This document shows, one piece after another, positions 12,041-16,105 of a stretch of DNA of 64,000 bases. A program made the position numbers and the translations under genes. The stretch covers positions 558,001-622,000 of the forward strand of contig JALCQD010000002.1 of assembly GCA_022651005.1 (NCBI GenBank), written 5' to 3'. Position 1 is the first letter of the stretch. Each line of letters opens with the position of its first letter. A model generated the notes under the pieces. That model had not been told where the DNA came from and searched no databases. It was given only the letters and a program-made list of their open reading frames with translations. The stretch is from Bifidobacteriaceae bacterium. Lineage in GTDB: Bacteria > Actinomycetota > Actinomycetes > Actinomycetales > Bifidobacteriaceae.

Positions 12041-13390
12041 ATGAGCGTGCCAGAAGACACAACTACGAAGTCAGCGCCGATTCCGTCGCCGGCCCTTGTC
12101 GCTAAGAAGAAGGCGACCACCTCGGTGGCGCCCCAAGCCGATTATTCATCCGAAGATTTCGCGGCTGCCGAGAAATTCGGCCGCCTCGGAGAAAATGGAA
12201 CCGTATACGTCTCGGATAACGGAACTGAACGAGAGATTGGCCAGTTCCCAGATGCCGGTAACGAGGATCCGCTGAAGCTCTTCGCACGCCGCTATCTCGA
12301 TCTCAAGGCGAAGGTGGAGCTGTTCGCCGCTCGTCTTTCCTCGTCGAACATCAAGACACGCGAAATTGATGAGTCCCTGAAGAATCTCGACGAAGAGACG
12401 AAGGAGCCGGCCGTCGTCGGTGACATCCAGGCCCTACGCACTCGCCTCGAGGAGCTACGCGGCATTGCTGCCACCAAGAAGGCCCAGCTCGCTGAAGAGC
12501 ACAAGAAGGCTGTGGAGGAGGCTATTGCTAAGCGCACTGAAATCGTGGAGAAGGCAGAGGCGATCGTTGCCGGCCTCGGCGATTCCACCAATTGGCGCAA
12601 CACCGCCGCCGATTTCAAGAAGCTCTTTACCGATTGGCAGGAACACCAGCGCAAGGACGCCCGTATCGACAAGCCTGCGGCCGACGCCTTGTGGAAGCGC
12701 TTCAGTTCAGCACGTTCCGACTTCAACGGGGCACGTCGCACGTGGGCAAAGGCTCGCGATGCACAACGTGACGGGGCTCGCTCCGAAAAGGAAGCGATCA
12801 TCTCCGAGGCTGAAGCCCTGAGCACCTCCACGGAGTGGGCTCAGACCTCCCACGCCTTCAACCAGCTGATGGACCGCTGGAAGGCAGCGGGCCGCGTGGG
12901 CCGTTCCGAAGACGACGCACTGTGGGCTCGCTTCCGTGGTGCCGCAGACGTCTTCTTTAATGCGCGTCAGGCCGATCGTGACCAGATGGGCGTCGAAGAG
13001 AAGGACAATCTCGTCAAGAAGGAAGCTCTTCTGGTCAAGGCCGAGGCTCTTGTACCGGTGTCCACCGAGGAAGAAGCACGCTCTGCACGTGCCGCGCTTG
13101 GCGGCATCCAGGACGAGTGGGATCAGATTGGGCGCGTACCGCGCGAGGATCTGCGCCGCATCGAAGATCGTCTCTCAAATGTCGAGAAGCAGATCAAGTC
13201 GGTGGAAGAGGCCGCATGGACTCAGAAGGATCCCGAGACGGATGCTCGCAAGTCCTCCTTTGAAACTCAGCTCGAAGCTCAGCTCGCAGAGCTCGATGCC
13301 AAGATCGCTGCAGAGGCCGATCCTTCCAAGAAGAAGGCTCTGGAAACAGAGAAGGCCACCAAGCAGCAGTGGCTCAGCGCAGTGAAGTAG
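12041..13390 (+). CDS. DUF349 domain-containing protein
   Basis: A 449-residue, strongly charged, mostly helical protein built of repeated DUF349 units. The repeats show as recurring W-x-x-x-F/L patterns (STNWRNTAADFKKLFTDW, STEWAQTSHAFNQLMDRWK) followed by DALWKRFSSARSDF and DALWARFRGAADVFF. The C-terminal third is predicted coiled coil. The function is unknown. The ATG at 12041 has an excellent AAGGAGAAGGC ribosome site. A TATAAT at 11934-11939 is a possible -10 element on this strand. The gene stands alone and ends in a very strong terminator. Confidence 0.9.
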   Translation: MSVPEDTTTKSAPIPSPALVAKKKATTSVAPQADYSSEDFAAAEKFGRLGENGTVYVSDNGTEREIGQFPDAGNEDPLKLFARRYLDLKAKVELFAARLSSSNIKTREIDESLKNLDEETKEPAVVGDIQALRTRLEELRGIAATKKAQLAEEHKKAVEEAIAKRTEIVEKAEAIVAGLGDSTNWRNTAADFKKLFTDWQEHQRKDARIDKPAADALWKRFSSARSDFNGARRTWAKARDAQRDGARSEKEAIISEAEALSTSTEWAQTSHAFNQLMDRWKAAGRVGRSEDDALWARFRGAADVFFNARQADRDQMGVEEKDNLVKKEALLVKAEALVPVSTEEEARSARAALGGIQDEWDQIGRVPREDLRRIEDRLSNVEKQIKSVEEAAWTQKDPETDARKSSFETQLEAQLAELDAKIAAEADPSKKKALETEKATKQQWLSAVK

Positions 13391-13408
13391 TTCTTCACTC
13401 ACTTATAG

Positions 13409-13458
13409 AGAGGGGGGCTGGGATCCGACACGATATCGGATCCCAGCCCCCCTCTTTA
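13409..13458 (+). terminator. Perfect 20-bp hairpin terminator after the DUF349 gene
   Basis: Positions 13409-13428 and 13436-13455 are perfectly complementary around a seven-base loop. The stem includes a run of six G opposite six C and is followed by TTT. It lies 18 bases after the DUF349 stop. Confidence 0.85.
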
Positions 13459-13480
13459 TGAGTTATGTAACGTATCCCCG

Positions 13481-13603
13481 AGTTGTGCGATTGGGAGCAG
13501 AGTTGTGCGTCGCAGGACCATTGATTTCCCAGTCGCACAACTTTCCGCTACGAGTCAGTACTTGATTCCCAATCGCACAACTCTGCTCCCAATCGCACAA
13601 CTT
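13481..13603. repeat. Phased inverted-repeat array of a 16-bp AGTTGTGCGATTGGGA motif
   Basis: Five copies of the AGTTGTGCG core lie in 123 bases between the DUF349 terminator and the ribH stop. Two point right (13481-13496 full, 13501-13509 core only) and three point left (13527-13542, 13567-13582 and 13587-13602). Unit starts are 20 bases apart, or 40 between the first two left-pointing copies. The outer arms 13481-13509 and 13574-13602 form a perfect 29-base inverted repeat. The 20-base phase is close to two helical turns, which suggests a protein-binding array, although a structured RNA 3' end or a dispersed intergenic repeat is also possible. It contains no credible ORF. Confidence 0.85.
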
Positions 13604-13644
13604 TAGATTTCAGGTTTCAGAGTTCGAACCCGGGGTGATATCCA

Positions 13645-14121
13645 CTACGCCTTCAGAGCTGCGAGCGCGCGGAAAGCACTCACCTGATCCACCACGTCTT
13701 GAGCGCACTCGGTCCCCTTGTTCCCGGACTTAGTACCGGCACGGTCGATGGCCTGATCAACGGTATCGGTGGTAAGCACACCAAAGAGAACCGGCACCGA
13801 CGTGTCGAGTTGCACTCGGCCGATACCACTAGTGGCCTGCTGGCACACATAGTCGTAGTGACTGGTTGATCCACGAATCACGGCACCCAGCGCAATGAGA
13901 CCGTCGTAAGCTCCCGTGGCCGTCATCTTCTGAGCCGCCAACGGGATCTCGAAGGCACCGGGTACCCAGAGAATGTCGATGTCGGATTCCGCCACGCCTA
14001 GGCGCAGCAGCTCGCTCTTTGCTCCGTCAAGCAGTCTGCTCGTGATGAAGTCGTTGAAGCGCGCCACCACAATACCGACCTTCATGCCTGTACCGTCGAG
14101 ATTCCCCTGAATTGTTGCCAT
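13645..14121 (-). CDS. ribH: 6,7-dimethyl-8-ribityllumazine synthase
   Basis: A 158-residue lumazine synthase that condenses 5-amino-6-ribitylamino-uracil with dihydroxybutanone phosphate, the penultimate step to riboflavin. Signature segments are [35 protein letters not shown] and [17 protein letters not shown], the last containing the catalytic His region. The ATG at 14121 has AAAGGAATACCA upstream. It is the last gene of the operon, 82 bases after the ribE-ribBA fusion. Its product partners directly with the RibB and RibE activities on that fused chain. Confidence 0.96.
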
Positions 14122-14203
14122 TGGTATTCCTTTCGTATCTTTCGTACATCAAAATGGTGTTATGTAAGAGACCAGCCCCGCTCAGAAAGAGGCCGAGACG
14201 CCA

Positions 14204-16105
14204 CTACAGCTGCAGCAGGTGTCCCATGCGTTCGCGCTTTGTCTCCAGATAGCGTCGATCCGTGTCATTGGCCGGCACCTCGAGAGAGGTCCGAGCCGCA
14301 ACCGTCACACCAAGCGATTCCAGCTGCGACACCTTGTCGGGATTGTTGGTCAACAGATTCACCGACGTCACGCCCATATCGCGAAGGATTGCGGCGGCAA
14401 GCTCGTAGCTACGCGAATCTACGGGGAGTCCGAGCCGCTCGTTGGCTTCGACGGTGTCCGCTCCCTCATCCTGCAGCGCATAAGCGCGCACCTTGTTGAG
14501 CAACCCGATGCCGCGGCCCTCCTGCTGAAGATAAATCACGACGCCTCGTCCCGCCCCGTCAATTCTGCGTAACGCCTCGTGCAGCTGATCCCCGCAGTCG
14601 CAGCGCAGAGAACCAAACACATCACCTGTGAGGCACTCCGAATGAACCCGCGTCAGGACGGGAGCAGCGTCAGAATCTGCGCCAGTATCAGCATCGGCTA
14701 CGTCGCCTCGCACGAGTGCGACGGCCTCCTCCCCTGTCTCAGGCGAGCGGAATCCCTGGATGGTGAAGTGCCCATAGCGCGTCGGCAATTCTGCAGCCGC
14801 GATTCGCGAGACGCTCAGATGCGCACGACGATACTGCTGGATTTGGGCGATGGTGATGACTGGCCACCCGTGCAGCTTCGCAAATGCCATCAATTCAGGC
14901 CGGCGCATCATGGAGCCGTCCTCCGCCATGATCTCGCAGCACAGCCCCACTTCGCCGCGCTTCGCGAGACGCACGAGGTCAACCGTCGCCTCCGTGTGAC
15001 CGTTACGCTCGAGCACGCCTCCGGGACGTGCCACGAGGGGGAACATATGGCCAGGCCTGCGGAACTCGGCAGGTGACGTTATCGCTGCCGCACCGCCATC
15101 TCCCACTCCGCCGGCCGCTGCCGCACGCGCCGTGGCGGCACGATCAAACGCGCTGATGCCCGTCGTGGTGGACTCATGATCAATCGACACCGTGAACGCA
15201 GTGTGGTGGTTGTCAGTGTTGCGAGCGCTCATGGGATCAAGCTCCAACGCGCTTGCCCTCTCGGCGGTCATCGGCATGCAGATCAGTCCCTTGGCATAGC
15301 TCGCCATCTCGTTGAGAATCTGCGGATCAAGGTCGCGTGCTGCGGCGATGAGATCACCTTCATTCTCACGCGATTCGTCGTCCATGACCACGACGAGACC
15401 ACCCTTCGCAATGGCCTCCACCGCATCCTCAACGGAATCGGTGTGCAAGGCGTCCGCAGCCTGTGCGTCGAACAGCTCCGCAATGCTAGCTGCCGTGAAG
15501 GATCCACTCGCCAACTGTTCGCTGTACCGCGCTGCAACGTCGACTTCGAGATTCATGGAATCTCCCACGCCACGGTCCCCAATGACCGTCGCTTCCTGCG
15601 TGTGAGGAATGATGGCCACGTCGAAGCTATTCGGCTCCACGTGTGCCACAGTGAGACTGATGCCGTCGAGCGCCACGGAACCCTGCGCCGCAATGTAGCG
15701 CATGAGCGAAATGTCGGGTTTCAGCGTATACCGTTCCGCAATTCCCTCATCCACACGTGCGATGACTTTTGCCACGCCATCGACGTGACCAAGCACCGTG
15801 TGCCCGCCGAAGCGCTCGCTCGCCGCCATGGCGGGCTCCAAATTGACACGGTCGCCAGGTGCCAGCTCACCCAAGTTGGTGAAGCTCAGGGTCTGTGGCA
15901 TGACGTCCAGCTCGATGATTCCCGTTGTCACGTCACGATGCGTGACGGTGAGGCACACGCCGTTGACACTGAGGCTGTCTCCGATTCCGAGCTGCGGTGC
16001 GAGATCGGCGCTCTCGATACTCAACGTGAGACCGTCAGAGGAATCACCTCCAGACTTTTTGATCTCTCGAATGGTTCCTCGTGCTTCGATGATTCCTGTG
16101 AACAT
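14204..16105 (-). CDS. ribE-ribBA: Trifunctional fusion: riboflavin synthase (RibE) + DHBP synthase (RibB) + GTP cyclohydrolase II (RibA)
   Basis: One uninterrupted 633-codon frame carries three riboflavin enzymes. Residues 1 to about 200 are riboflavin synthase alpha with two lumazine-binding barrels (MFTGIIEARG at the start, VNGVCLTV in barrel 1, LDGISLTV in barrel 2). Residues about 223-425 are DHBP synthase, with DDESRENEGDLI at 242-253. Residues about 435-633 are GTP cyclohydrolase II, with zinc Cys491, Cys502 and Cys504 in HSECLTGDVFGSLRCDC and the QQEGRGIGLLNK stretch. All three domains keep their key residues. The ATG shares its A with the ribD stop (TAATG), so translation is coupled. 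RibE and RibBA are commonly separate polypeptides; RibBA alone is a common fusion. The linker is roughly residues 200-222. Confidence 0.95.
   Translation of the reverse strand: MFTGIIEARGTIREIKKSGGDSSDGLTLSIESADLAPQLGIGDSLSVNGVCLTVTHRDVTTGIIELDVMPQTLSFTNLGELAPGDRVNLEPAMAASERFGGHTVLGHVDGVAKVIARVDEGIAERYTLKPDISLMRYIAAQGSVALDGISLTVAHVEPNSFDVAIIPHTQEATVIGDRGVGDSMNLEVDVAARYSEQLASGSFTAASIAELFDAQAADALHTDSVEDAVEAIAKGGLVVVMDDESRENEGDLIAAARDLDPQILNEMASYAKGLICMPMTAERASALELDPMSARNTDNHHTAFTVSIDHESTTTGISAFDRAATARAAAAGGVGDGGAAAITSPAEFRRPGHMFPLVARPGGVLERNGHTEATVDLVRLAKRGEVGLCCEIMAEDGSMMRRPELMAFAKLHGWPVITIAQIQQYRRAHLSVSRIAAAELPTRYGHFTIQGFRSPETGEEAVALVRGDVADADTGADSDAAPVLTRVHSECLTGDVFGSLRCDCGDQLHEALRRIDGAGRGVVIYLQQEGRGIGLLNKVRAYALQDEGADTVEANERLGLPVDSRSYELAAAILRDMGVTSVNLLTNNPDKVSQLESLGVTVAARTSLEVPANDTDRRYLETKRERMGHLLQL

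Follow-up and report, generated by a model that had tools for sequence, protein, structure and literature searches.

Helically phased palindromic arrays dispersed in a Bifidobacteriaceae genome and their proposed Vsr-like nuclease partner

The window, a 64,000-nucleotide stretch of a Bifidobacteriaceae genome, contains a phased inverted array between a DUF349-type gene and ribH. We consider it reasonably probable (about 0.6) that this array belongs, as a dispersed and non-coding copy, to a family of palindromic repeats, and that a DUF559/MTES_1575-type nuclease (Vsr-like, PD-(D/E)XK-type) is the cognate of that family. The family, its architecture, the framing of a gene by two of its arrays, the recurrence of such framing in other lineages, and the presence or absence of elements at matching sites were observed directly. 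The strongest association of the arrays is with the nuclease-like gene framed by two of them, whose product we infer to be the partner of the palindromes.

In the window array, plus-strand AGTTGTGCG cores start at 13481 and 13501, and minus-strand cores read from 13542, 13582 and 13602. The core-to-core steps are therefore 20, 41 (spanning the centre), 40 and 20. The window contains five exact AGTTGTGCG 9-mers; 100 shuffles contained 0.62 on average and never as many as five. These data bear out the first-pass annotation, which had described five cores phased at 20 bp, two rightward and three leftward. The perfect 29-base outer inverted repeat described there was likewise recovered, its arms being 100% complementary. 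The 40-base gap of that description is occupied by a degenerate CG-type unit, and a further degenerate unit lies in phase directly to the left of the array, its first bases overlapping the end of the DUF349 terminator hairpin. As had been claimed, that terminator is separate from the array and forms an inverted repeat of its own; a hairpin followed by a T-run also occurs 3′ of the DUF349 gene in G002, another genome of the genus. The innermost unit sets the orientation of the array (centre ...GGGAAATCAA), which is common to most arrays of the family. The features are summarized in Table 1.

Table 1. Positions in the window of the array, its parts and its neighbours. Gene names are those of the first-pass annotation.
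Feature	Position	Strand	Evidence
Entire dispersed element (array A7 of 12; phased and inverted) with its one degenerate outer unit	13461..13603	.	unit map, inverted repeat, core count
Outer inverted repeat (perfect, 29 nt), left arm, with + cores at 13481 and 13501	13481..13509	+	inverted-repeat search
Outer inverted repeat, right arm, with - cores reading from 13582 and 13602	13574..13602	-	inverted-repeat search
Degenerate 20-nt sixth unit AGTTATGTAACGTATCCCCG, starting AGTTATGTAACG, in phase directly left of the array	13461..13480	+	sequence, unit alignment
Innermost unit AGTTGTGCGACTGGGAAATC	13523..13542	-	unit alignment of arrays
Degenerate CG-type unit AGTACTGACTCGTAGCGGAA	13543..13562	-	sequence, unit alignment
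Terminator-like hairpin 3′ of the DUF349 gene, separate from the element	13401..13463	+	inverted repeat
DUF349-type gene, convergent neighbour	12041..13390	+	
ribH-like gene, whose 3′ end is 42 bp away from the last core	13645..14121	-	

The window array is one of a family in its own genome (G000; 2.16 Mb in 6 contigs). A 16-mer motif, allowing up to 2 mismatches, matched 37 times in G000, as compared to 0 times for a reversed-pattern control. Thirty-five of the 37 matches lie in phased arrays, and the other two (L041, L042) are lone. Using the 16-mer together with a looser pattern, we defined at least 12 arrays (A1 to A12), the window array being A7. All share an architecture of inverted runs of 20-bp units about an asymmetric centre. 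In 11 arrays, the plus-strand units stand at a single phase of 20, to which the minus-strand units are offset by +6; A11, the twelfth array, has the same strand-to-strand offset. When oriented by their centres, most arrays read ...AGTTGTGCGATTGGGAAATCAA...; the innermost unit is of the ATT type and is usually followed by one of the CG type. The 12 arrays align over 126 columns without internal gaps, differ in the number of units, and have little in common past register and motif.

A covariance model, R1, was built from the 12 arrays and scored on the best 18 candidates per genome. A second model, R2, described below, was scored on the best 22 per genome, both strands included. Element counts are accordingly lower bounds, and "none" for a genome refers to the candidates scored. 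R1 recovered the same 12 places in G000, by construction, including the window array at G000:C2:571459-571584, itself part of the model. No further G000 arrays were found among the best 18 of 612 candidates, so more degenerate arrays may also be present.

All 12 arrays are intergenic, mostly at the 3′ ends of genes. When read by hand, seven lie between convergent genes and five between tandem genes. An ORF script agreed for 11 of them and called A3 divergent; we took A3 as tandem, that side being covered by a NusB-like frame on the minus strand. The arms of the 12 arrays are moderately complementary outside the motif that they have in common (covariation 0.173 versus 0.123 upon shuffling; 0 of 500 shuffles reached the observed value). 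In an arm-exchange test of same-array against exchanged arms, register 41 yielded a p of about 0.01 and register 61 one of 0.04-0.07; registers 1 and 21 were not significant. The RNAalifold covariation term was slightly unfavourable for the G000 arrays (+0.24) and not favourable for the five sequences of the R2 model (+0.84), in which 6 of 35 pairs had changed on both sides with pairing retained. As judged from the alignments, these both-sided, pairing-preserving changes constitute moderate evidence that a hairpin is maintained.

The window array had a folding energy of −39.8 kcal/mol (z −9.2) as single-stranded DNA and of −68.4 (z −10.4) as minus-strand RNA. The strong RNA fold, the both-sided changes and the location of the G000 arrays between convergent (7/12) or tandem (5/12) genes would all suit an RNA element, namely a hairpin at the 3′ end of the ribH or DUF349 mRNA that functions as a terminator, stabiliser or RNase III site. 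The first-pass annotation had proposed such a hairpin end for the ribH mRNA. One may form there, but the features of the arrays disfavour a role in RNA. First, no T-run follows the window array on either strand, and the array thus lacks the combination of GC-rich hairpin and T-run that defines an intrinsic terminator. A consensus scan of the array yielded no terminator-like match, a weak test in that it also missed the DUF349 hairpin, and no match to a promoter inside the array. Second, the orientation of the centre at tandem genes is mixed, being sense in three of five cases. Third, 6 of 38 related elements from other species, whose context was assigned by script, lie between divergent genes (10 convergent, 22 tandem). 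Finally, a 20-nt period would suit B-DNA better than A-form RNA. In the Rfam search of window positions 12900-14300, the 18 matches listed were all under the gathering score, and eight related loci yielded no match. Overall, we consider an RNA element to be quite improbable.

The array is absent from the DUF349-ribH intergenic region of G001 and G002, two other genomes of the genus. This spacer is 254 bp in G000 and approximately 110 bp, with a hairpin and T-run, in G002; at the site of the window array, the flanks in both relatives are too diverged to define the ends of the element. R1 matched G002 in three places and had no match among the 18 scored candidates in G001, in which a homologue of the nuclease described below was also not found. 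One of the G002 arrays lies 3′ of the counterpart of the gene that A5 follows (66% identity over 311 residues). The three dispersed G002 arrays differ from the repeats, unmatched by R1, around the nuclease genes of that genome (76% complete). The first-pass annotation had placed the window array beside the riboflavin operon. We rejected riboflavin-specific control because sister arrays adjoin unrelated genes; moreover, both sister species are without the window array.

R1 also reached G142, G144 and G153, whose elements form almost perfect hairpins and have a period of 20 nt. R2, constructed from five such hairpins, matched in 14 of 189 genomes of the family. The R2-type hairpins are scattered, with many in G142, and their stems vary by species. 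Several related elements lie between the same two flanking genes in two or three species. The median similarity of elements was 0.74 within species versus 0.59 between species. This is only a hint of concerted evolution because the elements were gathered with R2 and the 16 pairs at orthologous sites give a mixed picture. An exact 15-mer had no match in 58 relatives. The phased pattern GTTGTGC-N13-GTTGTGC matched in nine other genomes of the family: the match in G144 is at an R2-type element, those in G148 and G205 are short tandem repeats, and the remainder look like strays. A contig search matched 16 stretches, as compared to about 7 expected by our own estimate, and none of 23 pattern matches was confirmed as a viral relative. 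We discounted two R1 matches, L111 and L112, that resemble simple hairpins; L111 (G177 C1:866789-866893) is an isolated inverted repeat of 27 nt (96%). According to the first-pass annotation, identification of the motif as a known family of mobile repeats whose copies are degraded would count against a phased array of sites. The arrays do form a dispersed family with diverged copies, but these have kept their phasing and no published description of them was found.

The only gene seen between two arrays encodes a nuclease-like protein of 294 aa (G000 C1:188800-189684; locus L232) and is framed by A1 and A2, the other 10 arrays found by R1 in G000 lying elsewhere. In G142, two hairpins of the scattered type frame a gene encoding a 317-aa protein. 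Among eight relatives of the 294-aa type, four (L292, L280, L271, L235) matched DUF559 above the Pfam cut-off, and relatives of the framed proteins matched MTES_1575 under its cut-off. The 294-aa protein alone matched MTES_1575 at only E = 0.003, and its E-value in the profile search is inflated by the presence of the sequence itself in the profile. The residues S..E, D and E.DG..H are conserved in this type, the 294-aa protein included, and one relative had a weak match to vsr (E 0.008). According to these comparisons, the 294-aa type is assigned to the DUF559/MTES_1575 (Vsr-like) group; we take DUF559 to have the PD-(D/E)XK fold. The 317-aa type had no significant match in Pfam, with weak AbiEi matches in some members, and joins this group by profile comparison only: a 240-column alignment of its profile to that of the 294-aa type had a probability of 97.5 and an E of 8.5e-12, with no sequence of either type in the profile of the other. 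In a scan of 15 proteins of the framed-gene family, Y1_Tnp was not found; the matches were to DUF559, MTES_1575, AbiEi or nothing relevant. The best sequence match in the PDB was not significant (E 0.21).

These proteins are common. Homologues of the 294-aa protein (E ≤ 1e-6) occur in 200 of 347 genomes sampled from the order; for the 317-aa protein, the number is 114 of the 189 family genomes (E ≤ 1e-10). The 294-aa protein matched 0 of 50,697 phage records and 3 of 72,556 plasmid records, and the family is chromosomal by these counts.

We then compared the flanks of nuclease homologues. For the 317-aa type, the best 30 of the 114 genomes were sampled, with one locus each, chosen regardless of flanks. 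Twenty-two of the 30 loci had at least one hairpin of score ≥14; the hairpins are often identical on either side of the gene and differ between groups of homologues. Flanks were scored as matching if the best ungapped left/right match was ≥20, the thresholds having been chosen after the hairpins of the 30 loci were listed, and loci that were too short were excluded (L213 and L218 from the 317-aa set; L236, L274, L273 and L291 from the 294-aa set). Left and right flanks matched at 17 of 28 loci of the 317-aa type but at 0 of 30 aspS control loci. Similarly, two-sided hairpins of ≥14 were present at 14 of 28 nuclease loci versus 1 of 30 aspS loci. Single-sided hairpins are common in the controls too: a hairpin of ≥16 on either side occurred at 19 of 28 nuclease loci versus 10 of 30 aspS loci. 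When the four discovery loci (L201, L202, L203, L205) were left out, 14 of 24 loci had matching flanks and 12 of 24 had two-sided hairpins.

The 294-aa type yielded a different picture inside and outside the family of G000. Outside (18 loci fetched, 16 tested), flanks matched at 16 of 16 loci and two-sided hairpins were present at 10 of 16. Inside (11 fetched, 10 tested), the corresponding numbers were 4 of 10 and 2 of 10, and among distant members in G000 and G002 (5 fetched, 4 tested), flanks matched at 1 of 4; these low own-family and distant counts argue against partnership. The closer homologues in G000 and G002 had flank scores of 65 (L231), 57 (L232), 27 (L233) and 46 (L234). When flanks of the 16 other-family loci were mispaired, 12 of 80 pairs scored at least 20 and 5 of 80 at least 24, as compared to 16 of 16 and 15 of 16 true pairs. 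In the 317-aa set, 18 of 140 mispairs matched versus 17 of 28 true pairs, some mispairs being from orthologous loci. The long flank matches in L219, L230, L289 and L296 are not hairpins.

Individual loci illustrate the range of arrangements. The cleanest framed cassette seen is that of a G002 homologue (L231:1351-2537), whose near-identical hairpins have perfect arms of 27 nt on the left and, on the right, arms of 25 nt that include one mismatch. A second homologue in G000 itself (L234:1300-2640; C1:273 kb) has a weaker palindrome, CGGGGCA...TGCCCCG, on both sides. In G135, a hairpin with arms of approximately 100 nt adjoins a nuclease homologue (L220:1128-1365).

The genus g14 includes 11 R2-positive genomes, in nine of which we inspected one homologue locus each; outside these nine are G146, for which no homologue match was listed, and G148. 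An R2-type hairpin adjoins the nuclease homologue at four of the nine loci (G142, G154, G143, G074), in G143 and G074 on one side only, and the other five carry other palindromes. As only four of nine loci have an R2-type hairpin, many elements are without a detected partner.

The first-pass annotation had also suggested that the cores are sites on one face of the DNA, or a platform for a nucleoid protein or regulator. The phasing of about two helical turns is real and common to the 12 arrays, and a natural reading of it would be that a multimeric protein recognizes a single face of the DNA; by contrast, nothing points to a host nucleoid protein. In the nuclease flanks of the own family (L204-L230 plus four loci), repeat lags cluster at 62-63 and 51-52 bp, although this clustering is not independent because the loci are related. 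Helical phasing in these related loci was R = 0.40 at 10.5 bp (95% null, 0.18). It was absent from the nuclease flanks of other families (R = 0.09) and slightly over its null in the aspS control (R = 0.26 versus 0.24).

A host nucleoid or regulatory protein might bind the phased sites, with the nuclease gene merely lying between two of them. The single 20-bp register of the 12 arrays, the own-family lags near whole helical turns and the retention of some element positions between species, a retention that also counts against the nuclease partnership, would be consistent with such a platform. However, the window array is absent from two sister species, with no array among the scored G001 candidates, and the sequence of the element varies from species to species. 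Moreover, the framing of this nuclease family recurs in other families with other palindromes, where the helical signal is missing. A host platform is thus unlikely.

The ilvD-gmk junction provides a comparison of a framed site across species. In G000 (L031), it is occupied by the 294-aa gene, with A1 on one side and A2 on the other. In G002 (L236:1117-2474; too short for the flank count and read by eye), it contains a gene in the opposite orientation for a 279-aa relative, with repeats of its own that are partly 20 nt apart and have no R1 match. The relative is 35% identical to the 294-aa protein, whereas Gmk is 88% identical. In G076, G162 and G070, the junction has no such gene and comprises only about 300 bp with an ordinary hairpin. 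The sequences indicate gain or loss and fast turnover at this site; the comparison does not reveal the mechanism.

In another rival explanation, the arrays would be a conventional MITE or a foldback-like repeat mobilized by some unrelated transposase, with the framed nuclease gene as a passenger. Dispersed inverted-repeat elements that are missing at the window site in relatives would be expected of such a repeat. Against this, the copies vary in unit number and share little past register and motif, and the gene between paired palindromes is repeatedly from one nuclease family, with different palindromes. We give this explanation little credence. Foldback (FB) elements of Drosophila are eukaryotic, kilobase-sized, long inverted repeats of short direct repeats. 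The arrays resemble them in this design but are built of other units, and no homology is claimed.

In the reading that we favour, in which the nuclease is the cognate of the palindromes, several copies of the nuclease would occupy, in both arms, half-sites that are 20 bp apart and lie on the same face of the helix. The long palindrome would be held or extruded as a hairpin, and nicking or cutting at the hairpin may allow the element to be copied to, or lost from, intergenic sites, sometimes along with the framed gene. RAYT proteins have been proposed to act on REP palindromes in a similar way. A broader proposal, to which we give slightly less than even odds, is that these elements represent a new class of selfish system in the Actinomycetales. 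In this class, a stand-alone Vsr-like nuclease gene would be framed by its own palindrome, with many gene-palindrome pairs per lineage and solo palindromes chromosome-wide; in the present family of genomes, the palindrome would have become a helically phased array read by a multimer.

The closest known organization is that of the REP/RAYT systems. In one description, the partner gene is flanked by two of its own palindromes, further copies are scattered between genes, complementary mutations occur and palindromes are partner-specific (PMC2817692). The present system looks similar in the A1-[294 aa]-A2 framing and the matching flanks of relatives (17/28, 16/16 and 4/10), in its scattered extra copies, with 10 further arrays in G000 and many in G142, and in its complementary mutations and partner-specific palindromes. 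It differs in that the proposed partner is of the DUF559/MTES_1575 type and not a Y1 HUH transposase; in that the GTAG/CGTC head was not seen in the 12-array alignment or its invariant columns; in that the elements are long hairpins or phased 20-bp arrays; and in copy number, a dozen or so having been found in G000, as compared to the 37 to 427 REP copies per genome given for Stenotrophomonas in the same description (PMC2817692). By this analogy, the system looks like one organized as REP/RAYT pairs are, with an unrelated enzyme.

Two further comparisons are informative. BIMEs (bacterial interspersed mosaic elements) are also composite, regularly spaced palindromic units between genes; in the present arrays, direct 20-bp units instead run inward in each arm about one asymmetric centre, and there is no REP core. 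The MTES_1575 domain, to which relatives of the framed proteins match below its cut-off, DUF559 being above its own in four of eight, has been named a novel Vsr REase (PMC3710099). In the available portion of that source, it is one domain of giant multi-domain proteins and palindromes beside it are unmentioned, whereas the present proteins are stand-alone and of approximately 300 aa. In the non-subscription literature, searched by titles and abstract openings, no link between DUF559/MTES_1575 and palindromes was found.

If the proposed partnership is true, a common and functionally blank family of actinobacterial proteins would gain a predicted substrate, the palindromes flanking its own gene, and would be directly testable in vitro. 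It would also suggest that systems of a palindrome and its partner have arisen around at least two unrelated nucleases, and it would explain a class of dispersed intergenic hairpins.
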